Below, in pieces: positions 3,710 through 24,876 of a DNA stretch of 26,180 nt; the first letter of the stretch is position 1; every line of letters starts with the position of its first letter. Under the pieces are notes generated by a model, which saw only the letters and a program-made list of their open reading frames with translations, did no database searches and was not told the DNA's origin. The position numbers and the translations under genes were made by a program. Source of the stretch: Pigoraptor vietnamica (taxonomy: Eukaryota; Opisthokonta; Filasterea); the NCBI GenBank assembly GCA_943704525.1, contig CALSCQ010001358.1:1-26180 (forward strand), written 5' to 3'.

Positions 3710-6700
3710 TCACTTGGCCTTTGAGAACGACGCGTAGCATTCCTCGTGGCACTTGCCCGCGGGGGAACCGTCGGCCGCAGTGATCGGATAATACGAGCCC
3801 GAAAAGCGCCCGACCACCTCGCACAGCTGCGGAGTTGGAGGTGAGTAACAAGGCACTGCAACTCACGAGCGCCCGCACAAACACACCACTCTCTTGTAAG
3901 GTCTAGAAGAAACTCATCCACACGCACCCAAACACCTCACATCACACGCGCGCACAAATTTAGATGAGCGGAATGCGAGGCGTGTTGTACACATCACACA
4001 CCGGTCCCTTGCAGTGTATGCACTTTTCGGCGCGCATCTGGACGTAATTCTGCTCGCAGCGCACGTGCACCGTGTCTCCGTTTTCAAACTCCTGCAGCCG
4101 CGCGTACGTCAGCAGAGAGCCAAACAGAGGCGCCGCCAACGCACACCGTCCCACCTGATACGACTTGTCAAGAATGGGCATGAAGCACAGCGCACACTGC
4201 GGGCCATGCGACGCCTGGAAGAGCTCGTAGCACTCGACGTGCACCTGCAAACAGACGCAGGCCGTTTCAGCCACTGCGATTCGCCCTCACCGAACGCGAC
4301 CGTTGACCACACTCGCCTGCTGTGTGTTGTCGAGCACGCGATAGAATTTCCCCGAGAACTTGTCGTTTGCGGCGATCGCCTTTGAGCACTGTATGCACTT
4401 GGGCGCGAGGCTCTCCGCGTGTGCGTCAAAGCAGCGCTCGTGCACGGCGCTCCCGTCCTGCGATGCATCGAAATGGCGACAGCTGAGTTGTGGACAGGCA
4501 AGTGTGTAGTGTGACGACGAGCGCGCTCCTCCACCTTGAAGACCTTGTACTTGTCCTCGCGAATGGTCGTTTTGCAGTGCACGCACTTTGGCGCATTCCC
4601 CTCTTGGAACGTGTCGTAGCATTCCTTGTGCACCTGCGCAATGCGGCTGGTTAGGGGCGCAGCAGCGACACGACGACGCAGATTGAGCGCCACTTGCTGC
4701 CATCGACGATTTACCTTGCGTTCGACAGACTCCTGGGTTACGACGTAGAAGAGGCCGCTGAAGCGACCCTCAATCTCGATCAGCTGAGCGAAGCAGGAGG
4801 AACAAGGGTGTTAGAGAGTGTGCGGCGGCATCAGGTGGAAATCTGCATACGCACACACACACACGCAAAAAAAGGATAAGCGCGCACGCGGGTACACACG
4901 CACCGGCTCGCCGCACTGGTGACATTTCTCCGACGTCATCTCGATGTGTCGCTTGTTGCAGTCGGCGTGGCACTTGCCCTCGGGATACCCGTAAAAAACG
5001 CCTGCGCACGCACCGAAACGTCAATGCAAGGACACGGCAACACGCTTTCACACAGCGCGGCAGAGACGCACCCTCCACAGGCTTGCTGCAGACGAGACAG
5101 AGGGGGATCCGGCTGTCCACGCGTTTCATGCGCTCCGCATCCCCCGCATTCGGCGTCGGCGGCACAATCTGGGACACGGACACCGGACTCCTCGACGACA
5201 CCGTCAGCCAAAACGTGCCTTCAACGCCGGCTCCCCACGCGGCCACGACGCACACGAGACGCTCGTGGCGCCCGCGGCGAACAGCGGTTTCGGCCGATGC
5301 CGTGCGTCGGTGGCACTCGATTGTAAGCGCGGCGTCGGTGGGCTTTAGCGGGCCCGTCGGATTGCGGAAGACAAAGAGCTTGAACTCGAGGAAAGGCAAA
5401 TCTGTGCCGCGGACGTCTCGCTGAGCGACGGTAAACGTGACATGCCCCTCGTCGCACTCGACGGCGTACGTTGGGTTGAACTGGAACGTCTCGGGGGAGT
5501 AGCCGCCCGCAGTGCTGATCCCAGAGGCCAGTGTAAGGACAAGACGCGCACACGCAAACGCGCGGAACAAAAAGACACTCGACGCGACGCAGGTCTCTCC
5601 GTGCTCCCACCTCCCTGCGGCCCACGAGCCCCGGATGGACGCGTAGTTGAAGCCGAGTGGAAGGGGAAGGCAGGCGCCGATGTTCTCAAAGTGCGCCACA
5701 AAGTCCCTGAAGCTCATCCAGAAGGAGCCGTCGTCGCTGTTTACGTAGCCCACCTGCGCGTGCAAGCGCGAAACGGAGAGTGAGGAGCGCAGTGGGAGCG
5801 GTGTGAATCGGTGACGGTCGCCCTCGTCGGTGCGCAGTGGTAGCAAGTGTCCGATCTGCCACCACCCCAAACAAAGGAAAAAGTCCGATTCGGAAGAAAA
5901 TTCCGACATGTTACTCAGCCTGAATGGGCCATTCACCTCGCGCTTGAGGGCGTCTGTCCACAGGCGGCTGTTGTCGCTGAAGTCGCCGCTCCACTCGAAC
6001 TCTCCCCATGGGTTGCGACACTGCGCCACAGAGAAGTGTTGGACGCGCGCACGGTGCGGCAACATACGGTGTTACGCGTTGTTACTACGCACCTTCACCA
6101 GCCGTATCCCTGCGCTCGTGTCCTTGAGTGCCAGCACGGAGTAGGCGTGGTCGCTGATGAGACCCTGTCGTTCAACTACTGTGTCAGACGGTGGTGAACC
6201 TCTCTCAAAGCGCGAACATGCGCGCATGTGCCTTCGCTTGCCTTCGTCTTTGCAACCGCGGACGAAATCGTGTGGCGCACTTCCGTCGCCATGAACGGAT
6301 CGCGCTTCGAAATCGCCTGCGCAGAGCTCCACACCTGCATCCGCAACGAATTGCACACACTCAACTACAGTCCGTTCTGCGTTGCATCGCACGGAAAGTC
6401 CGCCATACCTCCTCGAGCTCCTTCTTGTCAGTGGTGTCGTGCGGCAGCAGAATGGTCGTCGTCGTGCCGCCCGTCAGATAGCCAAGGGCGTCGATGGTGT
6501 CGCCCGCAATGCACGCCTCGAAGCTCCCGTGCAGCTTCGCCCACGCCTGCGGCAGCCAGAAAAGGAGAAAAGTGTCTGAGTTCTCTTGTCAACGATGGGC
6601 CGTCTAAGGTGTAAGCTGACCCGGCATTGCGATGTGTCTCGGGTGGGGCAGTCTGCAAGGGAAACACAGCCTTGTCATTCGACCACACACCTTCTCCATG

Positions 6701-8837
6701 ATCATGCACCACGTCTCCTTCTCGCGGCTGTTGCTGCGCCCATAGCGGCTGAAGACGGGCATCCACTGCGACCCTTGCTTGTAGCACGGAAAGAGGTCGT
6801 CGATCACAACCTGCATCGATGGCGGAGTTCAAGAGCCTCAGATGCTTGTCGCCCGCACCCACTCGACGAGGGATTGCGCCGTGCTATTGCGGAGCGCTTA
6901 TGTGCATATACTAAAAGCATGCCCTGCTCATTAGTATTGTTCGTACACACGCTTCAGACTCGTGCGCATCGCCCACTCACCGTCACCCACGCGCCCTCGC
7001 GGAAAAACTTGACGCCGTAGAGGCCGACGTCCTCATGGTCCTCGACGACGAGATCTTCGATGAGCATGTTGCGCTTGGCGCACCCGGCGATCGCGGCGAG
7101 AAAATAGCAGTCCCCAAGTATACCCTGTAATAGGTGCGTCAGCAAGCGCCACGCGCACGCAACACACAGGCACGAGCGCCTCCATGCACACCTGGTGGAT
7201 GTCGTCGGGGTCAATGCCCTCGGAAAACACGCGCGGCACCGCAGTGATGTCGCCAAATTCCGTCGGGCGCTTCCATGCCAACGACAGCCGCTTGCCGCTC
7301 GAGTCCGTGAGAAATTCGGGGTGGAACTTGGCCGGCTTCGAAGGGTCCATGAAGAGCGCGCTGCGATCAAGGGGAAGGAGCAAGGTGGCCGCAGCGCCCG
7401 GCGTGGGTAAGAGATGAGTGCGGAAACACGAACAGTTACGTGCAGATAACGTCGAATTCCACTGAGGCAAATTCAAAATGGGCCTGCATGAAAGCAAGAA
7501 CGCACCGGTCGTCGGCGGGGAAATCGGGGTCGCGGAAGAGCGCCCCCCGGGCACGCAGCATGTCCGCCAGCTCTCCCACCATCGCCTCACCCTCCCGGTC
7601 GCGCACGCCGGCCCACACCCCCTTCCACGCCGCTGCCCCGGACCCGCGCGTTCGCAGCATCCGATCACGCAGTCGCGCGCACACTTTCGCCTCGGGCGGC
7701 GTCAGTTCACTGCTTCCCGCGGCACCCACTGCGCCCGTGGCGCTCGGCGCAGCGGCGGGCTTCGAATGGCGATCGGCCGCGCTGTCCTGCCACGCGACGT
7801 CGCGCTTGTTCTTCGGCAAGGCCGCCGTTTTCTTAACGAAGGCCGACGCGGCCGCAACCTTGACGGCAATCGACGCAAACGACTTTGGGGCGGTCTTCTC
7901 CAAGCCCCAGTGCTCCATGCGCGCCGGCGAGGCCATCGACAGTGCGGCCGCAAGTAGCGCCCACCCCCGCCGCTTCACGGTTAGGTGGGCGAGGCGCACA
8001 AATCGGCCGCGGCCCTTCTCGCATTTAAAGAGGCGCTCAGTGCCAGCAGTGCCGTCGTTCGCGTCCGCGCCGGGCTTGTCCAGTTCGACGCCGGCCCACA
8101 CGCCACGCCCGAGGGCCGTGGCGCCAATGTAGCGGATTGTGCACTCTTCGTCACCATAGTCGAGGTGCAAGGTCGCCTGCACCAACAAGGCACATGTGCG
8201 CTGAGTACCAGGGGTACTGCTGAGTACGCGCAGGTCCCACTGGCCGCAATAATCCCCACCTTTGCGCCGACCCTGAATTCGGAGGGGTATGCAGGCATGG
8301 CGTGGATCTCGTTCATCACGGACTCGCGCGTGCGATGCTGCACGCGGTGTCGGCATGAGCACACGGAGTGCAGTGGGTTCGCAGTGCCACAAACATTCAA
8401 CGCACCCTGCGGAAGAGCGACTGGAAGCGGCGTGCGGCATCGCGCGCAGTGCTGCCGCGGTACTGGAGTGCGGTGGCTTCCGGCAGAACGGCGTCCTCTG
8501 GCACAAACACGCCGAGGCCAGGCCGGCACTTGAAGAAGCGGCGGCCGTGCACCGTCCCCGCAGTGCCCACTGTGTGGCAGCGAGTGGTTCAGAGGAGTCA
8601 GCCAAGTCCAGTGAGGCCAGTGAAGCGCATCCAAGGCACCCTCACAGAGACGCACAGTCCGACACACGCACACCCACCCGTAAAGCCGTGCCTGCGCCAC
8701 GGTTCGTCCATAATGACGCCCAGCCACACGCCGTCCTCCCAGTAGACGCGCGACGACGACGCCACTGTGCCGAGTGCGCATGCGCCGCGCCCGTTGGGGA
8801 CGGCCACGCGGCGACCGACGGCCTCTCCCTCTGCCAT
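3710..8837 (-). CDS. CAP-Gly/calpain cysteine protease with LIM-like zinc modules
   Basis: Twenty exons, 5' to 3': 8837-8678, 8569-8406, 8337-8260, 8176-7440, 7360-7192, 7124-6981, 6810-6691, 6546-6409, 6334-6281, 6164-6093, 6020-5937, 5753-5611, 5514-5072, 5001-4904, 4783-4715, 4633-4535, 4457-4317, 4244-4155, 4091-4002, 3826-3710; all phases close, about 1069 residues. CAP-Gly 1 (about 1-95) has lost the GKNDG motif; CAP-Gly 2 (about 128-200: IRYIGATALGRGVWAGVELD) keeps ANDGT. Calpain core about 345-690: Cys442 in GILGDCYFLA, His594 in GLISDHAYSV, Asn615 in RNPWGEFEW, and DGSFWMSF. Domain III follows (AGGYSPETFQFNPTY). The last 240 residues hold six C-x2-C-x(16-29)-H-x2-C modules joined by 11-residue spacers, related to LIM fingers but without the usual 2-residue spacer. 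Predicted active Ca-dependent-type protease, possibly targeted to microtubules (inference). Exon 17 ends at a GC donor. Confidence 0.85.
8201..8227 (-). mobile_element. 11-bp CAGGGGTACTG insertion flanked by 8-bp repeats (copy C)
   Basis: CAGGGGTACTG (8209-8219) is flanked by CTGAGTAC at 8201-8208 and 8220-8227. It lies inside the third intron of the calpain gene (8259-8177). The 11 bases equal the first 11 bases of the 19-bp copy at 18437-18455. The repeat can be read as 9 bases because G precedes both arms. Interpretation as an insertion with target-site duplication rests on the shared core and the exact flanks. Confidence 0.6.
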
Positions 8838-14009: not shown

Positions 14010-17000
14010 ACATGTGTGCTTGCGAGCGCGTGGGTGTGTGGGTGGGTGTGGATATACAGAGTACTGTGCCTGACCCTATTGCCTCCCGCAGGATGTGTCC
14101 CCTGTGGCCGACTACGATGTCGTCCACGCCACCATCGAAGCGGTTGCCGAGCACAAGAAGCGCCCAAACGTCATCACGCTGACTCTCTCTGACGGTGTCG
14201 TCTACTTCATGCAAGCCGCCTCCTCCCCCGAGATGGACGCGTGGGCGGAGACCTTGCGCAAGGCCGCCGCCATGGGCGCCCCCATCCCGGCCGTCAGCCT
14301 CACGTCGTCCGGCAGCGTGCGGGGCCCCAGCAGCCGGTGGAAGAGCACCGCCAGCGCCGCGGTGGCCGCAAACGCATTTGCCGCGGCCGCCGCGACATCC
14401 ACGCGACGTGGCGCCGCGCCCACCGAGTCTGCGATTCCGGAGGAGGGCGGCCTTGCGGCGTCGTCCTCAGGGCCTCTCCGCAAACCCGCGGACGACGGCG
14501 CCGGGGACGCGCACGCGCGGGGCGACGACGACGGCACGCGGCCGCGCGAGGTGCGGATGGGCATGTTCCACCTGATTGGGGAGGAGCTCGAGGAGCCGCT
14601 CGGCGGGGACGTGCTGCCAGACCTCAGTTTTGACATTGTGACGGACGCCGGCACGCGCCTCTCGTTCCTCCTCCCGACCACGGCGGATTGGAAGGGGTGG
14701 CACGGCGCGCTCCGTGCCCTCACGCGCCGCCGCCGGCAAACGGACGCCGTGATGGTGTCTCGCGCTGACGCAGAGGGTAATCTCGCGATGCGGCAGCGCG
14801 TGCGAGACGCCTACGCCGCGCAGGGGACCGCCGTGCCGGAAGTCGTGAATTTGGACGTCGACCGTGCGCAACGCGTGTTGGCGCTGGCGCAGTCGGGCGC
14901 GCCACCGGCCCTCTCGACGCCGCTCGAGCTCTCGCTGGCGGAGGCGATCGATGAGGACCACCACGGACAGTTTCGCATGCTGCTCTACGCGCTCCTGGAG
15001 CACGACAGCGAGACGGAGGAGCTGAGCGAGGCCGCAGCGCTCGTCATGGACACGTATGGCACGTTTTACGGTGTCGCAGAGACGTACAGGCGGCTGCTGT
15101 ATGTGGACGCCCTCGCGCGGCAGTACAATCTTGAGTGCCACCGCAAGTCTGCGCGCAACGTGCGCTATCTCCCTGTGCTTGCCGAGCTCCTCGTCCAATT
15201 CGGACACGTGAGTGCCGGCCCGCCCGTTCCGCAAACACCCACATCTAACACACGCGCGCACAGAGACACACTCACGCACGCACGTATGCACTGACGCAAC
15301 CTGCAATCCTCGTGCTCATAGTCTGCACCCTGTGGTGCTCTCCCCTGCAGTCGATTGAGACGTCGCGCGTGGGCTTGTCGCTGCTGGAGAAGGCCATTTA
15401 CGACGACGTCCTCTCTCTCCTCGAAACGCTCCAGACGGAACAGGTGCGCTTGTGCTGCAGCCTTTACCTCGCGTGCTGTCCGTGAGCGCTTGCACTGACG
15501 ATTTTTGGCCCCGCAGATATCCGCGTACAAGGACTGGTTCCCCTACGCCAAGGGTGGCATCGAGGCGACGCTCCGCCTGCTCAACGTCGTCGTCCAATCC
15601 GAGTACTATCGCGCCAAGACAAAGCGGGCGCCGAACCCCATGGCGGACCTCCTCCTCGTCTGCATTGGGCGTGCGACGGTCGCCCGCTACGACCGCGTGG
15701 GCTCGATGACGGCCGACCTCGTGGCCGCCGTCCTCTCGGCGCAGGCGCAGACGCCGACGCAGCACGCCGACGCGCGCTCTCCGCTCCAGCTGATGAAGAT
15801 GGCGCAGCTCGTCGGCGAGGAGCTCGCTGAGGACGCGGAGTACTTTCGCATGGCGTTTGCGCCCTACACCGACGTCGTCGCGACGGCGGGAGGCGAGTAT
15901 GCACGACTGCTCCTGAAGGACGTGCGGCGGTGCGTCGCGAGTCCCGTGCACACGGACTCTGAGAAGATCGACCTGTACCTCCGCGTGCGCCGCCTCGTGG
16001 ACGGCCCACTGCGGGAGGCGCGCACGCCCAAGAGCGAGGCGGACGTCGATGGCCTCGTCGCCGCGTTTGAGCCGTGCATCCGGGGGTGGCTGACATCGAC
16101 GGGGAAGCAGCTGCGCGAGTGGACGCGGCGCGCTCTCAGGGACGACACGGTGGGTGTGGGGCTTTAGAGGTGGTCTTTTCGTGTGCCCATCTCACCCTTT
16201 TTCCGCGCTGCATGCAGTTCACGCTGGTGGAGTCGGGCGGCGGCACGCTGCACTCTGCGTCGGTCGTCGACGTCTTCTGCTGCTTCAACCAGGTGCGTGC
16301 GATGAGCGGTGTGCGGTGGCGTGCGTGGGCACGACGCTCTTGTTCCCTGCAACCGTACACTCGCGGGGAGACCACTGACCGCGACACCCCCGCAGAGCTT
16401 TGACTTTGTGCAGCGCCTCAATTGGCCCAACGCATCCGAGCGGCACCAATTCCTGGAAATGTTCTCGGAGGTGTGTGCGCTGTCCGGGTGTCGTCACTGT
16501 TATGTCTACCCCGTTCCCCTCCGAACGTGACATGTTCATGTCTCTCTCTTTGCACCCCTGTCGTGCCCCTGATGAGCGAGCCCCGCGCAGTCCACGTGCC
16601 GCACGCTCGAGGAATACGTCGTCGGGCTGAAGGATGCGTGCGCCGAGCGCTTTTTCGAGAAGGGACCCCCGCCGCCGCCAAACGCCAACCCAAACACGGC
16701 GATGGGGCAGCTGTCGGCCCTGCTGGAGAGCAAGATTGACCTGGTCGAGGCACGCGTGAACAGCGTCTTTGGCGCGCCGGAGAGGCCGAAGCCCCGCCCC
16801 ATGACCGTCGAGGATGTACGTACTGCGCCGCTCTGTGCGCGAATGCCATGGCAGAGCGACCTTGCGCACATGCAGCCCTTGTCAGTATATCCTAATGTTG
16901 GCGGCGCGCTAACACGCAATGCCCGGCGCAGCTGTTCACCGCCCTCAACAACATTGAGGTGGCGCGGCAGCAACTGGCGGAGCTCAAGCGCCTCTTCCTG

Positions 17001-18206
17001 GCGCACGCGGCTGCGCTGCCGGTGGAGAACGGCTTCACTGGCCGTCACTTTGACGAGGCCGTCTCCGTGCTGGACCACATTGCGCTCGCGGGCATCCTCG
17101 CCGACCTTGCCGAGGAAGTGAGTGCTGCCGCTGCCACACGCCCATGTGTCACGTGGTGACCCCATGCGAGGGGTCGTGTTGCACTCCGTGCGTTGGGTGC
17201 CCCTTTGCTAAGCCGCGTGTTACTGCTCGCAGATGGCCGGCAGCATCCAGAGCGGCCTGCTCCACTTGACGGGTGTCGACGTCTCCGGCCGGGCAGGGTC
17301 CGCGTCACGCGAGCTGACCGAGGCCGACCTGGGCGCGACGGACGCCGAGGTGCAGGAGCTCGTCGACCCCGTGATTGCGTACATGAACGAGAAGCTCGAG
17401 CTCTTCACCGAGCACCTCTACGATCCCGTCTTCCAGCGCGTTCTCGAGCGCATGTGGGTGCTCGTCCTCGAAACGATAGAGGCCATCCTGTGCCCGATCA
17501 GCGACGCGGCCGGCGCGCAGAACGGGGCGCAGGCTCCCCGCCAGCCCTCGCGGCACGTGGACCTCAGCGGGTCGATGCGCCGGCGCCTCCCGAGCGGCGT
17601 GAAGAAGGCGCTTGGCGGAGTGCTCACGCCGCGCCAGCACGCTATGTTCGACAAGGCCATCAACGTGAGCGCTGTTCTCTGCCGCCTGTGTCGGCTGGCA
17701 CCTTTGTTTTGCGTGCGTGGGTTGAACGGAGTGTGGGCCTCTGAGTTGTCTTGTCGCGCGTGTGCAGATTTTCCGAGGGTTCCTCCACGCCGACTCGGAC
17801 GGCCTTCCTCTCGATGTCCTCGACTCGCCGAAACTTGCGGAGACGCGCCGCTTGCTTGCGCACTGCCGCACACCGACGAAGGCGCTGGTGGAGGCGCACG
17901 ATGCGCAGGCCACGCCCGAGGCAGAGCGCACGCTGATCAGGTATGTTCCGCTGCGTTTCTTGTGTTGGTGTGCCACTTGAGTGATTGATGCTCTTGTACG
18001 CGCGATAACGTGCGACTCTCGCGTGCCACTTTTCTGATAAATGCCCTTTAACGTGCGACCTGTGTGCGCCGCGCAGGCTCGTCATATCGAACCGCCAACG
18101 GGACTCGGACGCCGTGCAGTGGATGCGCGGGCGGTCCAACTCGGCGGGGAGTGGGGAAAACGCCGTCGATCGCATTGGGCGCTCCATCACGTCGTGGTTC
18201 AAGTAA
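10314..18206 (+). CDS. UNC13/Munc13-like protein with ubiquitin-like, C2, PH and MUN regions
   Basis: Nineteen exons: 10314-10375, 10472-10574, 10709-10883, 11003-11102, 11168-11279, 11408-11501, 11623-11726, 11817-11906, 12002-13906, 14092-15207, 15351-15443, 15517-16149, 16218-16292, 16396-16470, 16591-16815, 16932-17117, 17233-17664, 17768-17940, 18077-18206. Phases close, giving about 1960 residues. Residues about 55-280 carry two related segments (VRVFMPDNSYASFVV and VIAMYFPDESYGSFRV) that look like ubiquitin-fold or RA-type domains. C2 at about 600-720 (FKCRLKISLLELVGV), with few acidic loop residues, so Ca binding is doubtful. A Ser-rich linker is followed by PH at about 872-975 (KWKPMYFLLRNTRLFIYK) and a possible second PH-like end (about 1065-1125). 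MUN region to the C-terminus: MHD1-like VVDVFCCFNQSFDFVQRL (about 1540) and MHD2-like YMNEKLELFTEHLYDPVFQR (about 1765). Family members promote SNARE-dependent vesicle exocytosis. Exon 3 appears to end at a GC donor. Confidence 0.82.
10902..10987 (+). repeat. Perfect 43-bp tandem duplication in an intron
   Basis: Two identical 43-base units (10902-10944 and 10945-10987) inside intron 3 of the UNC13-like gene (10884-11002). The second copy ends 15 bases before the acceptor. The exact identity suggests a recent duplication. It lengthens the intron from about 76 to 119 bases and does not touch coding sequence. Confidence 0.9.
13962..14008 (+). repeat. (GT)n microsatellite in an intron of the UNC13-like gene
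   Basis: An uninterrupted 47-base GT tract lies in the intron between exons 9 and 10, which splits the PH domain. The tract starts about 55 bases after the donor. Confidence 0.95.
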
Positions 18207-18342: not shown

Positions 18343-18377
18343 ACGTGGTTCAGGGGTTCAGTACCCCTGACGTGGTT
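18343..18377 (+). mobile_element. 19-bp palindromic insertion flanked by 8-bp repeats (copy A)
   Basis: CAGGGGTTCAGTACCCCTG (18351-18369) has 7-bp terminal inverted repeats (CAGGGGT/ACCCCTG) around the spacer TCAGT. ACGTGGTT stands immediately on both sides (18343-18350 and 18370-18377). A CAGGG terminus with an 8-bp target-site duplication is typical of hAT-superfamily transposons. No transposase could fit, so this would be a termini-only, non-autonomous derivative. It lies about 140 bases after the stop codon of the UNC13-like gene. Confidence 0.7.
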
Positions 18378-18428
18378 ACACCCGAAGCGAATTATTCCGA
18401 GAGCTCGCAATGTTTTGGAGCACACACA

Positions 18429-18463
18429 AAAGCGACCAGGGGTACTGAACCCCTGAAAGCGAC
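18429..18463 (-). mobile_element. 19-bp palindromic insertion flanked by 8-bp repeats (copy B)
   Basis: CAGGGGTACTGAACCCCTG (18437-18455) is the exact reverse complement of the copy at 18351-18369. It is flanked by a different perfect 8-bp repeat, AAAGCGAC, at 18429-18436 and 18456-18463. The same core in opposite orientation with different flanking duplications argues for two independent insertions rather than one duplicated segment. Confidence 0.7.
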
Positions 18464-18690
18464 GCCATTTCACCCAATCGGGCCATCTGCTCCTTTTTTC
18501 CCTCTGCTTTCGTTTTGTTTGCCGCCGCGCGCGCGTTCTCTCATTCTGCTTGCTGTACATGTGGCTTAGTGTGTGGCAGTGCGGGTAGAGTGGGTTGGGG
18601 TTCACAGTGGGAGGGGTTTGTTTGCTAGTGCAGGGTGCCTATCAACATAGTCGGGCGACGGGAACGTTTCGTGCGTCCGCACACGCGCTG

Positions 18691-18736
18691 CACGCACGCA
18701 CGCACGCACACACACACGCACGCACGCACGCACACA
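18691..18736 (+). repeat. CACG/CACA simple repeat
   Basis: Runs of CACG alternate with CACA upstream of the SET gene. Strict purine-pyrimidine alternation makes it a Z-DNA candidate near the promoter. Confidence 0.8.
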
Positions 18737-18994
18737 ACTCGCGCGCCTAACCACGCGCACGCTATCACTCTCGTGCATACACCGCAGACACACGCAGACG
18801 CACATACTTTCGCCTCTTCGCACACACAAACACACAACCACACACACCACAACAAAACGCGCGCATCGCACGCGTACATAATCGCGCACTCAGCACGCTT
18901 ACAGCGCGGCCTGTGCGCCTTTTGGCGCCTCAATTGCCCACACGCACTCGGCTACGCACGCAACACGACGCACCGCGCGTGATCGTGCTGCGAC

Positions 18995-20173
18995 ATGGCA
19001 GCACCGCCTGCGAAGGCACCCCGCCTGTCCGATGGGCCCACCGACATCCACGAGCGTCTGGCGGATGGCCAGCGCGCGAATGGCGCAAAGGACGCCGCCT
19101 TGGTGGCGCGCGCCCTGAGCGAGCTGGACGCGTCGCAGGAGGGTTTGGAGCGGCTGAATGAGATGGCCTCTGAGGAGATTCTCCGCGTGGAGCGCCAGTA
19201 CAACGCACTGCGGCAGCCGCTGTACCAACAGCGCTCGCAGATCATACGCGCGATTCCGGACTTCTGGCTGCAATGCGTATCCGTCCCGTCTCTATGCCGT
19301 CCTGTATGCCACCATGACACGCGCACAGACACACGCACGCAAACACGCTCGCAAACACGCACGCACGCGCGCAGGGACGCACACATTCGACACCGGAGTG
19401 TACAGTGTTATTCCCTCTGCCAGTCGTCGTCTGCGTATTTTCTTGACCGCACGTCTCGTGGTGCAGTTCCGCAACAACGAGCTCCTGCGTGGGCTGCTGA
19501 GCGAGGACGACGCCGAGGCTTTCCACTACTTGCGCTCGATTGACGTGGAAGAGTACGACGATGTCAAGTCGTACAAGATTGTCTTTGTAAGTGGCCAGCT
19601 GTGTGTGCGGCGTTGTGTGCGTGTGTGCTTTTGTGGGGCGATGGGGTGCGTTGCTAGTGTTGCTATCGCAGTATATGCACTCACGTCAACGCGCGCGCAT
19701 CACCCCCTCACTCACTTCGCTAATGCGTCGTGCACGCGCAGTCGTTCGACCCCGACAATCCCTTCTTTGAGAATGCGACGCTCGCGAAAGAATATCTCGT
19801 GGACGACAATGGCGACTTGCACACGACGTCGACACCAATCGCGTGGAAGCCGGGAATGGTGTGTCTTGTCGCCTGTATTGCCCTCGGTGTGTGCGCACAC
19901 GCGAACACAGAAAAGCATGCGCGGCCTCTCAAATGCCAGCTCTTGCGATGCGGCTGACGCATGTGCTGTTGCAGGACCTGACTGCGGAGAATGTCAACGC
20001 GACCAAGGGGCGCAAGCGGCGGCGAGAAGACGGGGAGAGCTTTTTCCGGTGGTTTGCGGGGGGACAGGCAGCGGACGTCGAAATTGGCGAGGTCATCAAG
20101 GAGCACTTGTGGCCGAACCCGCTTCTCCACTACGCCGCGCGGGTGGGTCGAGCACAGAACTTTTCTGGCTCTC

Positions 20174-20228
<55 letters not shown>

Positions 20229-20342
20229 TATCTGTGTGTCTGTGTGTGTGTGTGTATGTGTGTGTGTGTGGTGTGTGTGTGTGTGTGGTGTGTGTGGTGT
20301 GTGTGTGTGGTACGTGTGTGTGTGCGTGTGTGTTGTGCGTGC

Positions 20343-20396
<54 letters not shown>

Positions 20397-21033
20397 GGTC
20401 ATGCCTGTGCATTGAACGCCTTTCCATTTCGCGCCGCAGTCGAGTGATTTTTCGGATGCACGCGGGGATGGCACAGCGGCTGTTGGCGTGAACAATGGCC
20501 TTGGCGTAAACGGCGAAAGCGCGCTAGCAGTGGACGAAGAAGGTGCCAACGGCGATGGCGGGGACGTGGCCTACGACGGCTACGCGGGCGAGGAAGTTGA
20601 AGAAGAGGATGAGACGCTTGCGACCGCTGGCGCCGACGGAGCGGCTTTTGCCGAAGGAGAGGTGTATGCCGAGGGGGGTCTATCGGGAGAGGTGGACGAC
20701 GACGAGTACGCGGGCGAAGAGGTCGCTGAGGCGGAGGGTGCTGAGCATGCGGAGGGTGTGGAGGCTGCGGACGAGGAGGGCGGCGAGGAAGAAGGAGGGG
20801 AGGAGGAGGAACAGACTGGCGACGAGCCCGACGGCGCCGCTGCTGTCGGTGAGCCTGGCGTAGCGGCGTATGGCGGCGACGGCGCTGAAGACGAGGGCGA
20901 CGAAGGGGACGAGGGAGACGAAGGGGAAGAGGAAGACGGCGAAGGCACGTATGGGGCCGATGCCCCGGATGACGACGAGGGTATTGACGCGGGGGGCGAC
21001 GAGGAGGAGCCCGACGACACGTACCGATCGTGA
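18995..21033 (+). CDS. SET: SET/TAF-I-type histone chaperone (NAP family)
   Basis: Five exons (18995-19276, 19467-19586, 19742-19858, 19975-20142, 20440-21033) encode about 426 residues with all phases closing. Residues about 35-85 form the dimerisation helix (LSELDASQEGLERLNEMASE). The NAP-fold body follows with IPDFWLQ, HYLRSIDVEEYDDVKSYKI, DPDNPFFENATLAKEY, ESFFRWF and EVIKEHLWPNPLLHY, closely tracking the SET subgroup rather than NAP1. RKRRRED at about 185 could be a nuclear localisation signal. The last 180 residues are an exceptionally long Asp/Glu/Gly/Ala tail including GDEGDEGDEGEEEDGE. Family members bind histones and assemble or remodel chromatin; the acidic tail binds basic histone surfaces. 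The tail is longer than in typical SET proteins, which have a few dozen acidic residues. The first donor is GTATCC, a weak match. Confidence 0.93.
20177..20394 (+). repeat. Compound (GT)n microsatellite filling intron 4 of the SET gene
   Basis: Two pure GT tracts (20177-20227, 51 bases; 20347-20394, 48 bases) are joined by imperfect GT/GTGGT sequence. Together they make up most of the 297-base intron (20143-20439). Confidence 0.95.
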
Positions 21034-23107: not shown

Positions 23108-24876
23108 TCACGTGCTCCTGTGCACGACCGAGGACTCTGGCAGTTCAAAGGAGAGGTACTCGCCGCCCTTGCCACGCGGCATTTCGTGCACTTCGACCAC
23201 TGCGTCGCTCTCAATCGGCGCATAGACGTGCGGGAAGGAGGGCACGTCGGCAAGCTCCCGCGGCATGGGAACGCCAGGCGGCGGCGCGGCGGCCTCGAAC
23301 TTGAGCCCTGCGGATGCGGCGCTTTGTGAGCACCATCGAGAAGCAGCCGGAGGGAGCCTTTGGAGAGGAAGTGGTGGAGCGCGTGTGGAGACAAGTGCAG
23401 GCATGACGAGTGGATTTAGAGAGCAGACACGAGCGAGAGTGAGATTAATAGGAAGTGGAAAGCATGGGACGAGAGCAGGCCACGAGAGCCCCGAACCCTT
23501 ACACACACCCTTCAGCTTGTACTCGTCCAGCACGAGGACGACCGCCGTGCCTTCGATGCCCCGCAGAAAGGCGTTCGCGACAATGATGCACTGCGCGAGC
23601 GTGGCACAGCAGTGCGTGAAGCCCTCCTCCGCGAAGCCCGCGGGGACATACGCGCGACCGCCCGCCGTCGCCTTGGCATAATACTCGCGGGTTGTCATGT
23701 GAAACACAAACTTGCCTGGGTGCGGGTGGAGGCACCGCGGGAAGTAGTCTGTGGGGGGGGGGGGGGGATGTGTGTGCGTGTGTGTGTGTGAGTGTTTGTG
23801 CGCGCCCGTGCAGGTCGGCGCGCAAGTGTTTGCTTGTGAGTAAATGGTGCGTGCACTCGACAACAAATACGCATCTAGTCACTCCGTGCGACGCGCACTG
23901 CACGCACCCGCATACTCCGTGAATAGGTGCGGAAACGTCTTCTCGACGTATTCGCGCGTGACGAGCGTGCGTCCCTGCGGCAGCCACCGCGGCACAGTGC
24001 ACTCGCTCACGAGCGCAAAGTCGCCCCGCACCAGCTCGCTCGACTTCCAGTACCCCGCCGGTACAGTCATCTGCAGCCGGTCGCCAGCGGCCAAGTCGCC
24101 GCCGAGCGTGATTTGCTCCACGCGGCCCTCTGCGCGGACGACGCATGCGCGCACAAGTTAAACACGCCAGGCATGGGAATAAGGCGAGGTCTCATCTGGA
24201 ACGCATAAAACTTGGAAGGCGTCGCGAATAGTAAGTGTGCATTGTTGAGCTGTGCATGTGTGTGTGGCACGGGTGCATGAACCGTTTCTCTCTCTCTCTC
24301 GCCACACAACACGTTGCATCAGTTCACGGCGCACTAGCACAAACTGATGCAACAGCGCACTAGCGCCTTGAGGCAGCACATAAGGACGTGAAATGCGAAA
24401 GGGCTCTCGCAGCAAGTCGACACACACCTGGAGAGACGATCGTGTACCTCGAGGCACCGCCCTTGTGAAAAAAGTGCGTGATGTCGCACTCGTTCGTGTG
24501 AAAGTATCCGATGGTGTGCTCGCGCGTGAGCATGTAGAGGATGCAGCCGTAGAGCGGGACATTCTTGGACTTTGAGTCGTCGCAATCGGCCGACGGAACA
24601 GTGATCTTGAAGAAGCCGCCCTCTGAGGTGGAGGGAATGCGGTCACACCGCGTGTATACACACGCACACAGACACAGGCGCACGCACACACGCACACAGC
24701 ACTTACGCACACGCTACTACGCACGATCACTCATAACGGACGCACACGCTACTACGCACGCTCACTCATAACGGACGCACACACTACTACACACGCTCAC
24801 TCATAACGGACGTCCACTAACCCTCGTGCGGGATAAGCCCGAGGTGCGCAATAATAGCCTCGGCGGTGTCCGCCAT
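23108..24876 (-). CDS. Cupin_5 (DUF985)-DUF952 fusion protein
   Basis: Five exons (24876-24822, 24622-24428, 24129-23908, 23748-23509, 23307-23108) encode about 303 residues. All junctions restore the frame and four have GT-AG borders. Residues about 5-155 match the Cupin_5 family: EEGGFFKIT, YGCILYMLTREHTIGYFHTN, THFFHKG, ITLGGDLAAGDRLQMTVPAG, then DFALVSECTVP, the usual LVsCTV strand. Residues about 165-290 match DUF952: KFVFHMTTREYYAKATAGG, EEGFTHCCATLAQCIIVAN, VLVLDEYKLKG and FPHVYAPI. Both families are common in bacteria and lack a firmly established reaction. The acidic DE pair usual near the cupin His appears as CDIT here. The protein has no signal peptide or membrane segment, so it is probably cytosolic. 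A metal- or small-molecule-binding role is inference. Confidence 0.85.
23753..23767 (+). repeat. G15 homopolymer at a splice acceptor
   Basis: Fifteen consecutive G on the + strand form a C15 tract on the transcribed strand, directly before the ACAG acceptor of intron 3 of the Cupin_5/DUF952 gene. It serves as the polypyrimidine tract and is prone to length slippage. Confidence 0.9.
24706..24810 (-). repeat. Three tandem 35-bp repeats in an intron
   Basis: Three copies of a 35-base unit containing CTACTACGCACGCTCACTCA and then TAACGGA, with period confirmed by TCATAACGGA at 24731, 24766 and 24801. They lie in intron 1 of the Cupin_5/DUF952 gene, just after its donor. Only a few bases differ among copies. 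Confidence 0.9.

Follow-up and report, generated by a model that had tools for sequence, protein, structure and literature searches.

Short palindromic inserts in the genome of Pigoraptor vietnamica as probable excision scars of P-type DNA transposons

According to the available excerpts of PMC7776569, the P transposase of Drosophila cuts 17 nt inside the inverted repeat, thereby leaving 17-nt 3′ extensions, and it also binds internal sites. According to PMC2895639, end joining of these tails in the fly yields tail prefixes, joined with microhomology or filler, between 8-bp repeats, and one such excision junction was recovered up to 14 times. Here, we analyzed a 26,180-nt stretch of DNA from the filasterean Pigoraptor vietnamica (contig CALSCQ010001358.1; hereafter the window), which contains two 19-bp palindromes in opposite orientation. 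With a probability of about 90%, these palindromes are excision scars of P-type transposons; dozens of such scars are spread through the genome. This reading is supported by target-site duplications, by inserts made up of two end prefixes and by the retained end lengths, which show a gap beyond 17 nt. In addition, long elements occur that have the same tips and matching duplication lengths, and the genome contains P-type transposase genes.

The scars resemble Drosophila P excision footprints (Table 1 of PMC2895639) in their flanking target duplications and prefixes of two inverted 17-nt tails, as well as in microhomology junctions, filler, one-sided remnants and recurrent identical junctions. 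In contrast to the fly footprints, which were assay products, they are natural and genome-wide, their tips read CAGGGGTACT instead of CATGATGAAA, and several tip classes exist, which differ in whether they duplicate 8 or 9 bp. With the P-like elements of the zebrafish Pdre2/THAP9 type (excerpts of PMC10983969) they share the occurrence of P-type elements outside flies, 8-bp target duplications and terminal inverted repeats, while the zebrafish repeats are 13 bp long with another sequence (CATACCTGTCAAC) and a scar set as reported here is not described in those excerpts. A literature search among open-licence papers found no report of genome-wide natural P-type scars.

In the window, the first scar, CAGGGGTTCAGTACCCCTG, is located on the plus strand at 18351..18369 between two copies of the 8-bp target-site duplication ACGTGGTT (18343..18350 and 18370..18377, plus strand). 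Its exact reverse complement occupies 18437..18455 on the minus strand between two copies of AAAGCGAC (18429..18436 and 18456..18463, plus strand). Both positions and both perfect repeat pairs, read directly from the sequence, reproduce what an earlier sequence-only reading of the window had reported. By prefix analysis, the 19-mers are composed of GAAC-class tail prefixes, with 12–14 nt of one element end and 7–5 nt of the other and a 2-nt overlap. At up to three mismatches, the 19-mer was found in only these two places of the window, each on both strands, compared with a mean of 0.01 matches in shuffled sequences. A third scar, missed by the earlier reading, was detected by end-sequence comparison: it is one-sided, consists of 10 nt of one end (CAGGGGTACT, 8209..8218, plus strand), and lies between two copies of the 9-bp target-site duplication GCTGAGTAC (8200..8208 and 8219..8227, plus strand), the whole reading GCTGAGTAC-CAGGGGTACT-GCTGAGTAC. 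The region 8200–8227 falls within a minus-strand open reading frame (ORF) with a CAP-Gly domain and may be intronic.

In the assembly (G000; 32.5 Mb, 1395 contigs, the window being contig C554), the exact 19-mer occurs 14 times, versus one match of the reversed-pattern control at up to two mismatches, and an exact 8-bp repeat adjoins 13 of the 14 copies, the exception being L052 on contig C994. A sister 19-mer, CAGGGGTACAGTACCCCTG, has five copies, three of them with 8-bp repeats, and the broader pattern CAGGGGTN{1,31}ACCCCTG matches 58 places (control: 3). For all further counts a set of 66 inserts was used, consisting of 56 of the 58 pattern places (those among the matches listed) and all 10 copies of the 14-bp sequence CAGGGGTACCCCTG; loci L001–L012, which duplicate other loci, were excluded. 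Exact flanking repeats of 8, 9 and 7 bp were present at 35, 10 and 4 inserts, respectively, i.e. at 49 of 66, versus none of 4282 mismatched flank pairs used as control, which supports the earlier claims that the units stem from transposition and that the 8-bp repeats are target-site duplications. Insert lengths range from 14 to 41 bp, most frequently 19 (19 sites), 14 (10) and 26 bp (9), and the identical 19-mer makes up 14 of the inserts. All seven AAT-type scars have 9-bp repeats; 8-bp repeats were found at 9 of 13 CACG-type and 19 of 30 GAAC/TG-type scars, and 9 bp never occurred in either of these two types. The 16 sites unclassed by motif have repeats of 8 bp (7 sites), 9 bp (3), 7 bp (3) or none (3). 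In the 8-bp duplications, G is weakly preferred at position 1 and T at position 2 (0.40 and 0.46, respectively, counting both strands), which may resemble the target motif of the fly. A viral collection searched with the 19-mer family gave no match.

Exact joins of prefixes from two 17-nt tails account for 49 of the 66 inserts; 48 are obtained with the four tails observed on long ends, the remaining one being L037. End-sequence searches of the assembly also yielded one-sided remnants and ends of long elements. When 139 termini were compared with four long ends, leaving out two sites (C304 and C1253:24098), 129 retained 9–17 nt, where the lower bound of 9 nt is set by the search word, none retained 18–23 nt, and the 10 termini matching at least 24 nt were all long ends. 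This remnant composition, with at most 17 nt per end apart from a single 20-nt one-sided remnant, agrees with that of a P-element excision footprint. In a reference-free comparison, more than 17 nt is common to many pairs of scars, mostly as a result of identical palindromes having both arms in common. The sequence CAGGGGTACCCCTG was predicted before the search from a self-complementary GTAC in each tail, and 10 copies were found (control: 0), with an exact 8-bp repeat at seven, a 7-bp repeat at one and none at two. In a 38-bp scar on contig C1120 (L063, 101–138), TTCAGTACC is present twice, which looks like templated filler.

The ends of long elements consist of CAGGGGTACT, followed by one of the tags AATC, GAAC, AACC or CACGGA and then by GGGGTATG; on contigs C1253 and C585 the tip reads CAGGTGTACT instead of CAGGGGTACT. 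The 12 long ends include four pairs whose members lie on different contigs but have a target copy in common in reverse-complement orientation, namely C336/C620, C719/C996 and C1345/C1253 with 8 bp each and C674/C1179 with 9 bp, and no other pairing reached 5 bp of shared target. The AATC tag belongs to the 9-bp pair, and the GAAC tail of C1345 yields the 19-mer product with a 2-nt overlap. Nine of the 12 long ends are cut off by a contig end within ~120 bp, as expected for repeats. A search for long ends with any other middle, including CAGGGGTTC, added only the candidate C1097.

P-type transposase genes are present in the genome, with PF21787 on three contigs. The protein encoded on C888 had no match at E 0.001 in a first protein search, and a search with words drawn from residues 380–930 gave nine matches. 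Searches of PDB sequences gave no match in one run and one meaningless match in another, and of eight stretches matched by the transposase alignment in the viral collection none was a relative. On C888, ~95-bp inverted repeats (110–204 and 5518–5603; L105, L106), 79% alike, flank the P-type transposase frame and may be the termini of a distinct P-type element.

The scars would arise as follows. On insertion, a P-type DNA transposon would duplicate 8 or 9 bp of the target site. It would later be excised in the germline by a transposase that cuts one strand at the tip of the element but the other strand 17 nt further in. The donor site would thereby be left with a 17-nt 3′ single-stranded terminal-repeat tail on each side, and cellular end joining would trim and join both tails, often at short microhomologies. 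The product would be a palindrome-like insert of two tail prefixes, usually up to ~34 bp long, or a one-sided remnant, ending up between the two copies of the target duplication. The P-type nature of the acting enzyme is suggested by the scar anatomy and the genes present, and the retained lengths point to the cut position of 17 nt.

Several observations weigh against this origin. A flanking repeat of at least 7 bp is absent at 17 of the 66 inserts, and 17 do not have the structure of a simple join of prefixes. With 38 and 41 bp, two inserts are longer than 34 bp, one one-sided remnant keeps 20 nt, and in the reference-free comparison up to 21 nt are common to non-identical scars of the CACGTG type. 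For CACGGG variants, the values of 15 nt are minimum estimates, since the exact subtype is not represented among the long ends found. In the only paired GAAC element the right end reads CAGGTG, so an exact parent of the 19-mer was not found, and 14 identical copies of the 19-mer would be a high number for an overlap of 2 nt if this junction were not strongly preferred. No P-type transposase was found within a CAGGGG-ended element, the interiors of the long elements not being readable; the 12 long ends include no end from any of the three contigs with PF21787, and C888:1–5700 contains no CAGGGGT end. As a candidate for the 19-mer, pairing of a CCCC-ended tail with GGGG was considered; such ends occur at three sites (L063, L112, L113), none of them a long end, and the idea was dropped because the parent end was not found.

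Individual sites preserve parts of their history. A ~140-bp repeat exists in three states: L014 is empty, L036 contains the 19-bp scar, and L108, whose target has one extra G, contains the end of a long element. The empty form carries a single copy of the 8-mer. On C1345, a long element lies beside the scar-like CAGGGGTACTAACCCTG at the same target, and on C164 two 19-mers are separated by three copies of GATCACGC. Re-insertion at a scarred site, as on C1345, would therefore explain tandem copies, and repeated use of one site perhaps explains the close 19-mer pairs in the window and on C142.

Among other explanations, an origin from hAT elements or another 8-bp-duplicating superfamily such as KDZ, with abortive gap repair leaving short ends, fares best but is unlikely. 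CAGGGGT tips and 8-bp duplications resemble those of some hAT elements and their miniature inverted-repeat transposable elements (MITEs), and the sequence-only reading had assigned the 19-mers to hAT. A search for the hAT transposase domain PF05699 gave no match in the genome and none in control genomes either, so that it is uninformative and hAT genes may be present. What differs from hAT elements and MITEs is that retained ends reach at most 17 nt with a gap at 18–23 nt, that one-sided remnants occur, and that the transposase family found is P-type; KDZ was not searched for. Random repair stops would not be expected to leave such a gap, which therefore argues for a fixed cut. Excision of hAT elements forms hairpins on the flanks, which would not leave element ends.

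Still less probable is the earlier proposal of termini-only elements, in which the 19-mers themselves would be mobilised in trans and multiplied as units of 19 bp. The 14 identical copies, 13 of them with exact 8-bp duplications, and the two C164 copies sharing the intervening GATCACGC would fit it. The same tips, however, occur on inserts of 14–41 bp with many different middles, including one-sided remnants without a second end, so the inserts are not homologous over their full length, with two ends and an invariable interior, as copies of a MITE are. Furthermore, GGGGTATG follows the tips in long elements and is present in 0 of 66 short inserts, while the fly transposase binds internal sites (excerpts of PMC7776569). 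Recurrent identical junctions are likewise produced by Drosophila P excision, with up to 14 isolates of one product, and tandem copies would be accounted for by re-insertion as on C1345. Ordinary regulatory sites or chance repeats with incidental flanking repeats would fit the 17 inserts without a repeat of at least 7 bp, but for the set as a whole this explanation is refuted by the control of flank pairs, 0 of 4282 of which share 7 bp. The single 8-mer copy of the empty site also argues against it.

The proposed excision by a P-type transposase replaces the claimed 19-bp transposon and makes testable predictions, one of which, the 14-bp GTAC junction, was confirmed in the sequence. The scars are ordinary in kind; their number and clarity are unusual. 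From dozens of them, it can be estimated within the genome itself where the transposase cuts, how long the target duplications are and how ends are habitually joined, and they call for caution, as a palindromic micro-element flanked by target duplications can have been left by excision. On balance, though with clearly less confidence than for the scars themselves, we favour the view that P-type excision in the germline has left a natural archive in this genome. The 17-nt stagger would then be old and conserved in the P superfamily far from the fly, the duplication length of related subfamilies with one tip would be 8 or 9 bp depending on a short tag, scarred sites would be re-entered, and end-joining habits could be read from an assembly without experiment.

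Some further features were noted. Near the 38-bp scar of L063, CAGGGGTTTCCCCTG (158–172) is flanked by 9-bp GCGAAAACG repeats and perhaps represents another element family. Contigs C431 and C663 (L074, L077) contain 247-bp stretches that are 96% alike and carry an identical CAGGGGTACTCACGTGAGTACG remnant, which therefore probably predates the duplication. A tandem repeat with a period of 54 at L048:3934–4085 contains TGCGCTGGAA-CAGGGCGTACTGACG. In the window, the ORFs at 17233–17988, 23108–23866 and 14095–15294 have a MUN domain, DUF952 and a PH-domain match below the cut-off, respectively, the MUN ORF lying shortly upstream of the two 19-mers. CA-rich simple repeats are located shortly downstream of both 19-mers at 18690–18760, and the ORFs at 20172–20549 are simple repeats in translation.
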